Below are positions 47,791-53,696 of a DNA stretch of 64,000 nucleotides, one piece after another. Positions within the stretch are counted from its first letter, which is position 1; the number at the start of each line of letters is the position of its first letter. A program made the position numbers and the translations under genes. The DNA is from Nepenthes gracilis (taxonomy: Eukaryota > Streptophyta > Magnoliopsida > Caryophyllales > Nepenthaceae): positions 9,665,597 to 9,729,596 of the forward strand of contig BSYO01000028.1 in NCBI GenBank assembly GCA_033239525.1, in the 5' to 3' direction. The notes under the pieces are model-generated. The model did no database searches and was not told the origin of the DNA. It was given only the letters and a program-made list of their open reading frames with translations.

Positions 47791-48579
47791 ATAAAATCTT
47801 AAATTTTCAATTATATAATGTATTTATTTGAGCCTTATTTAGACTAATTATTATTATCTGATAATTATTATTTGATTAAATTGGGATTATAAATTTTTAT
47901 ATCAAAGTAATTATTATAGAGAAGGAGAATAAAAAAATGAAATAGAAATAAGGAGAAGTAGAGAAGCAGAATAGAGGAACGGAGGAGAAAATCCATGAAA
48001 CAAAATGGGGTATATATTTTGATGTTTTACACATTGTTAGTTTAACCTCATATATGTTCCAACCATAACTTAGATTATAGTGAGCAGATTGTTAAATTAA
48101 TTACTCGATACTCAAATATTATCCTAAATCAAAGATCAATATAACTTTAAAATGTACTAAGATTTCTTCTTTAAATTGATAACATGGATTTTAGAGAAAA
48201 TATTATATTTATCTGGATAAGTTATGGCTCAAAATAGAAAATCATGAGAATTATTTAATATGATACACAATAGATGATCATTAAATTTGTCAACATTAGG
48301 TTTGATTATGTAAAATTCGATCAAGGAAAGTGCAGCAAGTGGATTATGAGGTGAATTAGAAACGGTGAGTTATAAATATTAGTTGAATTAGAAATAAAAT
48401 GACCCGAATTGAATGCAGAAGGCAAAATTCTAAGGAAGATAGAAAGAGAAGAATTCCAAAAAATGAAGAAAGAAGAAAAAGTTTGGTAACAAATTCCAGT
48501 ATTTTATACCTTTTTAGATTCTTAAATGATCATTCGTTTGTATTAAATATTTGTTCATGTTATCAAATTTGAGAGAAAT
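47791..48579. other. AT-rich sequence, possibly Gypsy LTR remnant
   Basis: Follows the Gypsy C-terminus and precedes the gene-capturing element. It may contain the decayed 3' LTR; no second copy found in the window. Confidence 0.35.
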
Positions 48580-48909
48580 TGTTACGTACTCGAACCCCTT
48601 TCCCCGTAAACTGTTCCCCGTTACCCATTACCCATTTCCCGTTATCCGTTCCTTGTTACCCGTGTTTCCCCGTTGCCCGTTTATATATGCTCACAGGCGT
48701 GTAATGAGAAGGCAAGAAGATATTTTCCAATTACTTTCCCTCTCTCACTCCTTGTCACTCGACTCTCTCTCTCTGGTTTCCCTCTTCCCTTTCCCCTTCT
48801 CCCTTTTTCCCTCCTTCTCTCGCACAAGTTGTCTTCTCCTCTACCAGAAATCCCCTTCCCCGTCACTACTTCGTCGATCATCAACGAGCCGCACATGGAG
48901 CATGTATCA
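48580..48909 (+). repeat. 5' LTR of the gene-capturing element
   Basis: 330 bp. It opens with degenerate heptamer-like repeats (CCCGTTACCCATTACCC and similar) and has TTTATATATGC as a TATA box at about 48679. A CT-rich leader follows and it ends GGAGCATGTATCA. Confidence 0.93.
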
Positions 48910-50415
48910 AATGGTATTCTCATTGAGACAAAAGCAGAGGAGATGATGGCCGAGGAACAAGCCCTCGAAGCGCTGGAAGCTGCTGTGGCAAGGCTGTCGA
49001 AGGAGATGAAGAGCCTGGTAGGGATCGTCCACCGGCAAACAACGATCATTCAACGACATACAGAACAACTCGCCTCTTTTTCTTCCACTACGGCACAGAT
49101 CCAGTCTTCCATGGTTGAAATCCATCACTCTCTGGCCCGAATCGAACAACAACGAAGCGAACACCATTCCCGGTCGTCTACAATTACCGCTTCGATTGAA
49201 CACCATTCCCGATCGTCTACAATTTCTGCTTCGATTATCATCACGTCCTCTCATCGTCGTCTGCATTCCACAGAAATCTTACATTTCTGTTCAATCCCTA
49301 GCTTACCAGAAATGATGAAGGAGTTCCACGAGTTGCAGACGACTGTACCGCCACGCGCCGATTGGCCGAGTGCTGAGCTAGACGGCGAGCCGATTGCTGC
49401 GGTACTAAACACAGGTAACCCCTTCCATCTTTCCCTACCTGCAAACCCTTTCGCCTCAGAGCAGATTCTGTCATTCAAACCCGCAAAGGACTCTGGTGGT
49501 GCTGACTTGGCTGAGCTAGGGAAGACGCATGTGAAATTTTCGGACCTTGGTAGCCTCGGTGGAGATGATGAGGTGCCGCAGCCGAAAGAATCGACTCTTG
49601 CTCAAGCATTTCTGTCCGTGATTTCCTCTGTTCTTCCAGCGCCTGAGAAAAGCATACTGGATTCTTGTGGACAACCATGCTCCGATGGAAAGAATCGACA
49701 ATGGCTTCTCTACTCTTTGCGTTGTCCTGCTCCATCACCTCGGTTCATTACACCTCCGTTCAATTGTAGCACAGGACTGAGGTCCTACTGTAACTCAAAC
49801 CGAGATTCCTTCCATTTGCAACTTCGAGCGCTGCATGCAACATCTTTTCTTCAACTACAAGCCCCGCGCACATCAAATTGGGGCATCGAGCTAAATCTTA
49901 TTAGCCAGCAATTTCACCTCCATGTCTGGACAATTGGACAGGCAAAATTGCTAGCCACTCTTGCCGCTGAACTGCCTACCATCCCACGACTTCATAATGA
50001 AGTTTTTCTAGAAGGGGCACACCTAGAGACGACAACATTATTTGATGACACTTCTTGGAAAATTTCGATGGTTTGGGACGAGGCCCCAGACGGAGCAATC
50101 GGACGCTACAACCACCCGACCGAATTGCGGACTACATTTCCATTTACGTTTGAATCGCTGATTTGGCGTTCATACATTCTTCTCATATATTCTCTGTTAG
50201 TTTCACACACATGTGCAAAGTTGAGATTGCACTTGATTCTAACTGCCGCGATTCTTCTGTATTGCTGCGATGCTTTTATTCTGCCGAGCTGTTGCTGTTC
50301 TGCGGAGATGCTTCTATTCTACCGAGATGATGCCGTTCTGTTCCACATCATACCCTCATCACAACGGCAAACATTTCCAACCGCAGAAATAGAAGCAAGA
50401 TCCAGAGGGTTGTAA
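48673..50415 (+). CDS. Coiled-coil gag-like ORF of the gene-capturing element
   Basis: 580 codons starting within the LTR; an ATG just inside or after the LTR (48894, MEHVSNGILIE) is a more natural start. Residues about 85-165 (EEQALEALEAAVARLSKEM, then HRQTTIIQRHTEQLASF and MVEIHHSLARIEQQ) form a heptad-rich helix like the N-terminus of some plant Gypsy gag proteins. A 13-residue unit (EHHSRSSTITASI) is tandemly repeated at about 49159-49236. The remaining 350 residues are unassigned and could contain further captured exons. No zinc knuckle or protease is seen. Whether it is translated is unknown. Confidence 0.55.
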   Translation: MPVYICSQACNEKARRYFPITFPLSLLVTRLSLSGFPLPFPLLPFSLLLSHKLSSPLPEIPFPVTTSSIINEPHMEHVSNGILIETKAEEMMAEEQALEALEAAVARLSKEMKSLVGIVHRQTTIIQRHTEQLASFSSTTAQIQSSMVEIHHSLARIEQQRSEHHSRSSTITASIEHHSRSSTISASIIITSSHRRLHSTEILHFCSIPSLPEMMKEFHELQTTVPPRADWPSAELDGEPIAAVLNTGNPFHLSLPANPFASEQILSFKPAKDSGGADLAELGKTHVKFSDLGSLGGDDEVPQPKESTLAQAFLSVISSVLPAPEKSILDSCGQPCSDGKNRQWLLYSLRCPAPSPRFITPPFNCSTGLRSYCNSNRDSFHLQLRALHATSFLQLQAPRTSNWGIELNLISQQFHLHVWTIGQAKLLATLAAELPTIPRLHNEVFLEGAHLETTTLFDDTSWKISMVWDEAPDGAIGRYNHPTELRTTFPFTFESLIWRSYILLIYSLLVSHTCAKLRLHLILTAAILLYCCDAFILPSCCCSAEMLLFYRDDAVLFHIIPSSQRQTFPTAEIEARSRGL

Positions 50416-50604
50416 CATTGCAGCTAATAGAGAAAGATGTGGCAGTTGAAATTGGCCCACAGTCCTTTGGAATTGCTCGTGACAACTATGAGGATGCAAA
50501 TGAGCTTCACGTGTCGTTGTTATCTCTTGTTACGCACCTTACTCCTTCCGCACCGCACTACGCAGCTTTCCGTCCACGTGACACAGTGATTCACCTATTG
50601 CCAG

Positions 50605-51861
50605 TTGCTATTCAACGTGCATACAGAGTGTCCGCTATTCTTCTTTGCCGTTAACCTGGAGGATATGGGTGTTATAGTGGCTGCCGTTTTAAAATTGCTA
50701 CCTAGTGCACAGGGGGCCAGAGCCTCTGACCAGCCCTGCAATGCCCATGCCTCGGCATGGAAATGGTTGAAGCTACTGCGGCCACAGCATCAAGGCCCCA
50801 TGATCTCTCATGATACTTTAGCTAGTATAAGTGGTACCAAGATGTGTTGGGCAACATATTTATGTTGTATTTGTATGTCAAGGAGTTTGGTGGATAGAAC
50901 GCTACAACGGCCTTGGCTCCCTGATCAGCAGCAGCATCACCCACAACACTTGCCAGTACCAACTCCAAGACCACCAGGCCTGCGATGTCCTGCTGCAACT
51001 GCATTCCCAATGCTTCCACTTGTTTACCCAGCTACACGGCATTGGACCAGTCCTCCCCCAACAGCTTCAGTAACAAAAATTAACTATGGCTGGGTTTTCT
51101 CCTCACAACAACAAATATTTTCCTTAATCAATGCCTTAAGAAATAGCTCCACTCACGCTCGTGTTGGGATGTCAATTAATGCCTTAAGAAGGCTGGATGA
51201 AGCAATAGCATCTGAGGTGGAGGGCTTAAGCCTATCACGCATGGAGATTCAGCGGTATGTGATACATTCCTTAGCTAACCTGCAGCAAGCTATTCCTCCA
51301 ATGAATTTCATGGCAGTGAGAGACCAAGTTCTCGTTGATCTTCGTGATCCATATCGATTTAATCAGACAAAAGCTCGCCATGAATCGCTGACTACCACAA
51401 TGAAGGATGGACTCCCTGCTTTGGGTCTTGAAATGAATGAGGCAGTGCAGTGTGCGTTTGCCAACCCAGAGACAACTCGCTTTGTTCTGGCACTAGGAGG
51501 AAGAAAAAGTCTACTAATCACAAGTTTCTTTGGAATGGCTGCTTCAATGTTCCTGTTGCCTTTGTCCTCCACATGGAAGGCGAGAGGACATCATCACTGT
51601 ACTGTATGCAGCATACCTGACTCAGTCCACGGAACAAATCCTGCTAGTGCTGCCAGGTGTGGAATGAAAATTGTGTCTGTTGGAACTGATGCTAAGGGGA
51701 ACATTAATATGGAAGACTCGAGAAAGGCTGCTGAAGCAAACAATGACAATCTGTCTGCTCTCATGGTTACATATCTTTCAACTCATGGAATTTATGAAGA
51801 AGAAATTTATGAGATTTGTGAAATAATTCATGATAGTGGAGGTCAAGTTTACAGGGATTGA
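50605..51861 (+). CDS. Chimeric ORF: unknown segment, glucose transporter piece, glycine decarboxylase piece
   Basis: 418 codons in the same phase as the 580-codon frame upstream. About 51090-51495 encodes an unassigned, protein-like segment ([20 protein letters not shown], then [19 protein letters not shown] and [11 protein letters not shown]). It is followed without a break by a short sugar-transporter segment and then a glycine decarboxylase segment. The frame ends at TGA 51859-51861, where the conserved sequence has glycine (GGA), so a single substitution ended it. The first 150 codons are Pro/Gln/His-rich and unassigned. A multi-gene fusion like this is not a host gene. Confidence 0.6.
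51497..51582 (+). pseudogene. Captured fragment: plastid glucose transporter
   Basis: [20 protein letters not shown] followed by LSSTWK matches a membrane segment of the plastidic glucose transporter (pGlcT, sugar-porter family), including the GRK loop motif that begins a transmembrane helix. Only about 28 codons are present. A second echo (LLSLSFIWK) lies at about 51957-51983, between the glycine decarboxylase and lysyl-tRNA synthetase pieces. Confidence 0.7.
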
Positions 51862-51952
51862 GCGAATGTGAATGCACAGGGTGGAGAAGGTCCTGGAATG
51901 AGACCCATTGGAGTGAAGAAACACTTGGCGCCTTTTCTGCCATCACATACTG
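51583..51952 (+). pseudogene. Captured fragment: glycine decarboxylase P-protein
   Basis: [20 protein letters not shown], then [37 protein letters not shown] and [12 protein letters not shown] are unmistakable for the mitochondrial glycine decarboxylase P subunit. After the in-frame TGA, ANVNAQ continues, then skips the stretch with the pyridoxal-phosphate lysine (HLNLHKTF in the family), resuming at GPGMRPIGVKKHLAPFLPSH. The active-site lysine is therefore absent and the fragment cannot be catalytic. Confidence 0.9.
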
Positions 51953-52716
51953 TGCTGTTATCTTTGTCCTTTATATGGAAGCTTTATTGTGAAAAGGAGA
52001 AGCTTCATGGGGATCAGTTTGAGCAGTTGAAAACACTTGTAGATAGTGAGAATATTCTAGGGTCATGTGACACAGTGAAGCGGACAGACAAAGGAGAGCT
52101 TTCTGTTTGTGTGAGTTCCTTTGCACTTCTTACGAAATCTTTACTGCCATTGCCGGATAAATATCATGGACTAATTGATGTGGCTAAGCGCTATCGTCGA
52201 TGGGATGTCGATATGATTGCAAATCCTGAAGTGGCAGCGGTATTCCGAAAGAGAACAAAGATTGACTCGGAGATATGCAAGACAGTGGAATCTTTAGGCT
52301 TTGTTGAAATTGAAACTCCAGTTTTACAGGGAGCTGCTGGTGGAGCTGAAGCGAGGCCATTTGTAACGTACCATAATCCACTGGGGAGGACGCTTTATCT
52401 GAGAATAGCAACTGAGCTTTCCTTGAAGAGAATGCTAGTTGCGGATGCAGGACAATCGAACGATTTAAGGAATTGGTGTCCTTCAGCTGCACCATCCTTC
52501 AATCAGGGACAGGGTTGTGGTGCCGGGTCTAGGACATTTGTGCATAAGCTGTTTGACATTGAGGACAGGGTCATTTTGATGGGAACGACAATGTTACGTA
52601 CTCGAACCCCTTTCCCCGTTAACCGTTCCCCGTTACCCGTTACCCATTTCCCGTTACCCGTTCCTTGTTATCCGTGTTTTCCCGTTGTCCATTTATATAT
52701 GTTGACAGGCGTGTAA
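51868..52716 (+). CDS. Chimeric ORF: glycine decarboxylase tail plus lysyl-tRNA synthetase piece
   Basis: 282 codons, same phase as the two frames above, so only the TGA at 51859 and stops around 50413-50600 break a single long frame. It covers the end of the glycine decarboxylase piece, the lysyl-tRNA synthetase piece, about 40 unassigned residues (with FVHKLFDIEDRVILMG), and then reads into the 3' LTR. As for its neighbour, it is carried by the element and is not an independent gene. Confidence 0.6.
   Translation: MNAQGGEGPGMRPIGVKKHLAPFLPSHTVLLSLSFIWKLYCEKEKLHGDQFEQLKTLVDSENILGSCDTVKRTDKGELSVCVSSFALLTKSLLPLPDKYHGLIDVAKRYRRWDVDMIANPEVAAVFRKRTKIDSEICKTVESLGFVEIETPVLQGAAGGAEARPFVTYHNPLGRTLYLRIATELSLKRMLVADAGQSNDLRNWCPSAAPSFNQGQGCGAGSRTFVHKLFDIEDRVILMGTTMLRTRTPFPVNRSPLPVTHFPLPVPCYPCFPVVHLYMLTGV
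51984..52443 (+). pseudogene. Captured fragment: organellar lysyl-tRNA synthetase
   Basis: LYCEKEKLHGDQFEQLKTLV, then KGELSVCVSSFALLTKSLLP, PDKYHGLIDVAKRYRRW, ESLGFVEIETPVLQGAAGGA and ARPFVTYHNPLGRTLYLRIA match class II lysyl-tRNA synthetase of the bacterial/organellar type. They run from the anticodon-binding domain into motif 1 and the start of the catalytic core. Motifs 2 and 3 are missing, so no activity is possible. The fragment is colinear and without introns over 150 codons, suggesting capture from spliced RNA or from more than one exon. Confidence 0.9.
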
Positions 52717-52917
52717 TGAGAAGGCAAGAAGATATTTTCCAATTACTTTCCCTCTCTCACTCCCTGTCCCTCGACTCTCTCTCGTTTCCCTCTTCCCTTT
52801 CCCCTTCTCCCTTTTTCCCTCCTTCTCTCGCACAAGCTGTCTTCTCTTCTGTCAGAACTCTCATTCCCCGTCACTACTTCGTCGATCATCAACGAGCCGC
52901 ATATGGAGCACGTATCA
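52592..52917 (+). repeat. 3' LTR of the gene-capturing element
   Basis: 326 bp, same ends, TTTATATATG box and CT-rich leader as the 5' copy. Followed by the GAAAT duplication. Confidence 0.93.
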
Positions 52918-53696
52918 GAAATCTAATAATAATTTTTGATTGAGGGTTGTTTTATAATTTTTTATTTGTAATTTCAATTTTAATAGTTCTATAGTAATGA
53001 TATATAGTGATATTGTTAATCATTATTTGTTAAATGTTAATGAAAAATACGAATTCGGAAGAATGAAAGATTCGGAGCAAAGAGGGCAAAAAACAAAGCA
53101 TCGGCCACCGTGTTCTCTTGATGAACACTGCTCATCTTCGCGGGGGAGTGGCTCCTTCTCAGCACTGTAGCTGTGGAAAAATGATGGATTTTGGTTATTA
53201 ATGAGTTATTTGAATATGGTAATTAATTATTTAGTAGAAGAAAAGTATTTTAGTGATTATTTTGAGTACATATTGTATAAATGGAATTTCAAAGGATATA
53301 TTTTTAGTAACTCAATCTAATAAATTGATTTTTTTTTTTTGCTTGTTTAATTATGACTTTCATAAATATTAACATGTTAAGTGTTGTGATGACATTTAAT
53401 TAATAAATATGAATAATACATTTAATTTTGATATTTTAAAAAAATAAATGATACATTATATTATATTGAGATATGTACTTTTCATTCTACACTAATGCAT
53501 TATATTAATACTTAGTGTTATTCACATTTTCTTATTTTTCATTCACAAATCTATTTCTAATAGGCAATCTTAGTAGAACGGAGTAAAAAATTACTTATTA
53601 AAATAACATAAAATTATCAGTGCATGGATAGATAATACTTTATGTTATAATTTAATATAGTATGATATTTCATTATATATTTTATGGATAAAGTAA

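Follow-up and report, generated by a model that had tools for sequence, protein, structure and literature searches.

In retroviral oncogene transduction, splicing to a cellular exon creates the left join and a template jump the right one, and the maize element Bs1 retains a recognisable gag remnant. Host-gene capture by LTR elements is usually ascribed to unspecified template switching. Passages of one review describe Bs1 as an LTR element with three host-gene segments and a chimeric reading frame (PMC13317346), and excerpts on maize, rice and sorghum report further LTR elements with pieces of host genes inside them (PMC2774510, PMC3726574). TRIM elements with acquired exons have also been described, and the section concerned likens their capture to that of Bs1, in which only exons were taken (PMC4717578).

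We analysed a window of 64,000 nucleotides from contig C28 of the 752.5-Mb Nepenthes gracilis genome and confirmed that positions 48580-52917 (4.3 kb) are a decayed non-autonomous LTR retrotransposon. Like Bs1, the element carries exons without introns from several host genes: pGlcT (plastid-type glucose transporter), GLDC (glycine decarboxylase P-protein) and LysRS (lysyl-tRNA synthetase of bacterial type). It differs from Bs1 in that the Nepenthes family is large, its cargo changes and comes from many genes, the ends fall on exon borders, the copies appear to record the order of capture, and the upkeep of the frame was tested. It shares with the TRIM elements described in part of PMC4717578 the non-autonomous LTR structure and acquired exons, but it is not very short, and its 3.7-kb interior combines a single long frame with pieces from several host genes. 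The likeness to retroviral oncogene transduction lies in left joins at host exon starts for GLDC, LysRS and S1P lyase (sphingosine-1-phosphate lyase, in another copy); the differences are that this system is plant, non-autonomous and serial, and that GLDC and LysRS finish at exon ends on the right side too. Pack-MULEs and Helitrons capture genomic DNA with introns, whereas here the LysRS copies are exon-only and the elements have LTRs with 5-bp duplications. Two features go beyond the Bs1 precedent, namely cargo ends on donor splice sites and a single LTR-to-LTR frame with stop depletion, and our searches of the open-licence literature listed neither a report of this family nor one of LTR elements capturing exon-bounded pieces serially. 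We favor, with a probability of about 0.6, the reading that the window copy is a decayed member of a non-autonomous LTR retrotransposon family expanding through splicing-based trapping of host exons. These small elements, seemingly without enzymes of their own and with host exons strung in frame, may offer a record of how genes are captured and perhaps of why they are kept. The window copy is laid out as follows.

48575..48579, unstranded: left target-site duplication GAAAT, adjoining the 5' LTR
48580..48909, plus strand: 5' LTR, 330 bp, with TATATA at 48682 and the main-frame start AUG at 48895, 15 bases before the LTR end
48910..48928, plus strand: candidate primer-binding region, with TTTGGTGCTTTCATTGAGA here in other copies
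48895..49200, plus strand: leader with a coiled-coil-like N terminus, common to the family
49201..50412, plus strand: family module, up to the end of the first window ORF (from the window ORFs)
50413..50589, plus strand: stretch outside the main frame in this copy, with four main-frame stops
50590..51497, plus strand: family module, in the main frame
51498..51579, plus strand: pGlcT piece, whose last letters TGGAAG are the joining point
51580..51954, plus strand: GLDC exons, both ends exactly donor exon ends, with a main-frame stop at 51859
51955..51981, plus strand: second pGlcT stretch, 27 nt, again ending in TGGAAG, 22/27 identical to 51553-51579
51982..52437, plus strand: LysRS exons, intronless, both ends exactly donor exon ends
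52438..52591, plus strand: tail, common to many copies
52592..52917, plus strand: 3' LTR, 326 bp (repeat finder)
52918..52922, unstranded: right target-site duplication GAAAT, adjoining the 3' LTR

The first-pass annotation had proposed a complete LTR insertion with a GAAAT duplication, and the matching LTRs of 330 and 326 bp with GAAAT on both sides bear this out; its span of 48580..52917 is right for the element itself and leaves out the two target-site copies. Both LTRs begin with TGTTACG and end with GTATCA, so that the element has the paired TG..CA LTRs and the target-site duplication of an LTR retrotransposon. The LTRs are 93% identical according to the repeat finder, and their K2P divergence of 0.068 (326 aligned sites) corresponds to 2.6-4.9 My at substitution rates of 1.3e-8 and 7e-9 per site and year. 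Of eight further LTR-pair copies, five are immediately flanked by a perfect 5-bp duplication whose letters differ from GAAAT, and the other three (C3, C23 and C1:21.4M) are not. The sequence TTTGGTGCTTTCATTGAGA right after the LTR is conserved across copies, its region being only a candidate primer-binding site, and a check for a polypurine tract before the 3' LTR gave GATGGGAACG.CAA, which is purine only in part. Within the family module, window positions 49159-49236 consist of two 39-nt direct repeats that are 92% alike.

The interior was proposed to be without pol, and this held: neither the window ORFs (Pfam, NCBIfam) nor the sibling ORFs scanned matched a pol or gag family, one sibling family scan giving only the top 25 families, and the leader matched no Pfam gag in window or sibling ORFs. 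The five matches from a short-motif scan look like chance, four of them being antisense and the fifth lying in a flank. In copy L003, a zinc-knuckle-like motif lies in the flank upstream of the 5' LTR and perhaps belongs to another retroelement.

Further copies with the same LTR, whose cargo the first-pass annotation had proposed to compare, were found, and their cargo differs. The window LTR plus leader gave 41 matches (best 40 of 586 candidates scored), as did the LTR plus leader of a sibling (best 40 of 665). A leader-protein query gave 1150 first-look candidates, and all of the best 150, those that were scored, matched (150/150); the open frames around these best 150 of 1150 reached at least 500 codons in 35 cases and at least 1000 codons in 6, with a median of 329. 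The copies compared throughout are top matches rather than a random sample and are mutually non-independent. They have the LTR and leader in common, and many the tail, with variable cargo between. Among the listed matches (best 40 of 586 and 40 of 665), no pair of LTRs enclosed a longer interior of the kind expected of an autonomous partner, and protein searches with the leader of copy L079 gave no matches. The presence of gene fragments as cargo could in principle reflect a chance repeat or an ordinary pseudogene array, but the paired LTRs, the target duplications flanking the window element and 5/8 further copies, and the dispersal of copies with the window LTR through the genome make this reading negligible. 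We found none of the three outcomes that had been named as fatal to the first-pass annotation (a chance duplication, a pseudogene array without LTR copies, a normal pol). Three MON2-carrying copies (L049-L051, C31:1728901-1737493) form a tandem array on one strand at intervals of about 3.7 kb and have some stop codons in common. At C4:6354354, C10:16825548 and C35:1598589, the GLDC piece is in two parts about 0.5 kb or more apart with a 20-base overlap in the query, the pattern that an insertion with a short duplication would leave.

The three host genes proposed for the window, all on the sense strand, were identified as such. GLDC and LysRS were named from NCBIfam and PDB matches, GLDC with E 7e-28 in PDB and 4.9e-33 for NCBIfam gcvP, and LysRS with 7.2e-38 in PDB, 5.1e-45 for NCBIfam lysS_bact and 3.3e-14 in Pfam. 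We take this bacterial-type LysRS to be the organellar LysRS, with which its bacterial type is consistent. The pGlcT piece, the shortest, was named from its match to a manually composed pGlcT-like query (69% over 36 residues, E 1.9e-5) and from sibling L035, in which about 330 pGlcT residues (NCBIfam GlcP-type 5.2e-65, sugar porter 3e-64) continue directly into gcvP. Three exons of the GLDC donor at C1:14026249-14027514 match in order (94, 92 and 95%), and the window piece lacks 78 nt internally compared with copy L023. The LysRS donor at C11:9623284-9628137 matches in five stretches in order over 4.9 kb, with its splice sites read directly. A genome search with this gene, the only one queried in this way, gave 31 rows outside the gene, 31/31 of them exons only and none intron-bearing. 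These rows argue against the possibility that host DNA was inserted with its introns first, and that these and partial flanking introns were spliced out over later rounds of retrotransposition. Such a history would likewise yield exon-bounded ends, but no intermediate was seen, and we consider it quite unlikely.

We read both the element and the donor gene at each of seven host-side cargo ends. Five of the seven were exactly on splice sites (GLDC start and end, LysRS start and end, and S1P lyase start), so that the left join is at a host exon start for these three genes; the DUF7798 start is off a splice site, and the MON2 start is ambiguous, with an AG present and a pyrimidine tract absent. 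The chance probability of at least 5/7 ends on borders is 2e-9 if one boundary per 100 bases is assumed, and 5e-7 for 3 per 100. At the pGlcT point TGGAAG|GT, the next piece is GLDC in some copies and LysRS in others. Because five of seven ends are exact and one pGlcT point has two partners, our findings suggest that cargo capture went through splicing. The same two observations count against plain template switching, in which reverse transcriptase leaves the element RNA for mature mRNAs of the host and then returns, ends coincide with exon borders by chance, and the open frame is simply inherited from native coding sequence. This route is accepted in reviews (PMC13317346, in its section 4) and accounts for the intronless, sense cargo and for a GLDC-to-pGlcT return and a DUF7798 start off splice sites; as the whole story, it is made unlikely by the exon-bounded ends.

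The joins themselves fall into a series. In L067, pGlcT is continuous across TGGAAG|GTTCTGG, and in L035 and L037, TGGAAG is followed by GLDC, 27 nt of pGlcT again, TGGAAG and then GTTCTGG. In L022, L023, L024, L013 and the window, LysRS follows the second TGGAAG, and in L020, L059 and L079, TGGAAG leads directly to LysRS without intervening GLDC. L079 has S1P lyase joined where the LysRS of L022 and L023 reads TTTGT|GTGAGT. We read L067, then L035 and L037, then the window type as probable successive stages of capture, an order drawn from the joins rather than from a tree. Since copies at different stages keep successive joins at one point, the capture mechanism becomes readable from sequence. 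The return from GLDC to pGlcT is accompanied by the 27-nt duplication, is preceded by no AG and looks like a template jump. In the host pGlcT gene (C22), GTTCTGG comes after the same TGGAAG and reads as coding, so that TGGAAG|GT is a cryptic donor at best.

Under splicing-based trapping, the element RNA would use weak 5' splice sites inside captured exons (TGGAAG|GT in pGlcT, TTTGT|GTGAGT in LysRS), and these sites would join further host exons to it. Enzymes supplied by an autonomous partner, itself unseen, would then copy and integrate the chimeric RNA. Joins would spread only if they kept the frame open, either because translation almost to the end spares an RNA from nonsense-mediated decay or because packaging needs translation in cis, and the captured pieces would end up mainly as open-frame filler. 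The fuller proposal is a self-feeding trap in which donors in captured exons seize further host exons entire, the host coding sequence being kept only as open-frame filler that lets an enzyme-less RNA be translated near to its end and evade nonsense-mediated decay; we advance it tentatively, at somewhat less than even odds. The points that we count against a splice trap are the MON2 and DUF7798 starts, the GLDC-to-pGlcT return without AG, a stop depletion in the +1 frame, and a leader unconstrained in the closer copy set.

The family interior is a single frame that runs from an AUG in the 5' LTR towards the 3' LTR. In the window, the AUG at 48895 lies downstream of TATATA at 48682, two other AUGs (48687 and 48704) are close to where the RNA is expected to begin, and three long ORFs share one frame, broken by the shifted stretch at 50413-50589 and the stop at 51859. 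The frame is intact in L079, with 1295 codons terminating inside its own 3' LTR. The AUG is missing from its usual place in L043, L049, L050 and L051; L043 has one a few codons upstream. The minimum number of stops and frame changes is 3 in the window, 0 in L079, 0 in the available part of L043 and up to 15 in L062, and summed over 19 elements or parts it is 95 in the sense direction, 491 in antisense and 527 in shuffles. Plant nonsense decay can detect long 3' UTRs, with mixed transcriptome-wide support, according to sections of PMC6173133, and a plant virus that has just one ORF and a short 3' UTR evades it, as outlined in PMC5031192. A frame terminating in the 3' LTR would fit such escape, and translation-coupled packaging predicts the same pattern.

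Stop codons and amino acids changed differently among the copies. Over 1074 codons in 37 copies, many of them partial, shared changes included 6 stop-gains against 18.8 expected (P 5.9e-4), and singleton changes 29 against 35.9. Leaving out two of the three tandem C31 copies gave 5 shared against 18.4 (P 2.4e-4) and 30 singleton against 36.5 (P 0.16), the P values taking changes as independent. Shared stop-gains were 0 against 3.9 expected in the cargo alone, and in the shifted frames 18 against 26.7 (+1) and 19 against 18.9 (+2). Between copies, pN/pS was 1.17 for pGlcT plus GLDC (66 pairs) and 0.88 for LysRS (21 pairs). Because shared stop-gains are depleted while cargo amino acids drift almost freely, we infer that selection keeps the frame open, perhaps for escape from nonsense-mediated decay. 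This combination makes it testable whether a gene-less RNA parasite must carry an open frame. The first 42 codons of the leader had a pN/pS of 0.51 in 15 divergent copies (105 pairs), with no constraint seen in the closer set (20 shared changes). A chimeric protein functional for element or host, and under selection, could account for this value, the long open frames and six annotated N. gracilis proteins with family sequence. Cargo pN/pS near 1 lowers that reading, as do singleton stops near expectation (30 vs 36.5) and cargo that varies among copies, and we regard it as very unlikely.

The first-pass remark that all three captured genes are organelle-related is true of the window copy and fails for the family. 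Between the LTRs of L061-L064 we found PPR, DUF7798, a mitochondrial carrier and a weak OST48_N, and in other copies MON2, an amino-acid transporter (Aa_trans) with a MIP1 leucine zipper, an ABC membrane part, a long pGlcT, GH3, an NLP GAF, transketolase and S1P lyase, the last identified from PDB matches. OST48_N, Pyridoxal_deC and GST_N scored below Pfam's own cut-offs, and the DYW, E-motif and ALMT matches are not assigned to an element, the stretches scanned including flanks. With siblings carrying non-organelle host genes, the organelle theme is no family trait, and the MON2, MIP1, Aa_trans, ABC, S1P lyase, GH3 and NLP cargo rules out organelle targeting as a capture rule. At least 25 Pfam families were matched by the 120 longest of 241 sense ORFs, compared with 0/123 antisense ORFs of at least 85 codons at 1e-3, a comparison that favors the longer sense ORFs; the longest antisense ORF in 55 loci has 180 codons. 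The closest donor match seen was that of the MON2 cargo of L050, 96-100% identical to four host-gene exons at C16:10952166-10954616, and this capture is therefore probably recent.

Chimeras derived from the family stand as predicted proteins in the N. gracilis annotation. The six annotated proteins that resemble the leader ORF and share family sequence (P0001-P0006), all from N. gracilis, carry ion transport, MFS and weak GST domains. The gene filter for N. mirabilis uses transposon Pfam names, as stated in part of PMC12244726, and a filter of this kind would leave such chimeras in gene sets. Nepenthes gene sets should accordingly be used with the warning that they contain element chimeras as predicted proteins.
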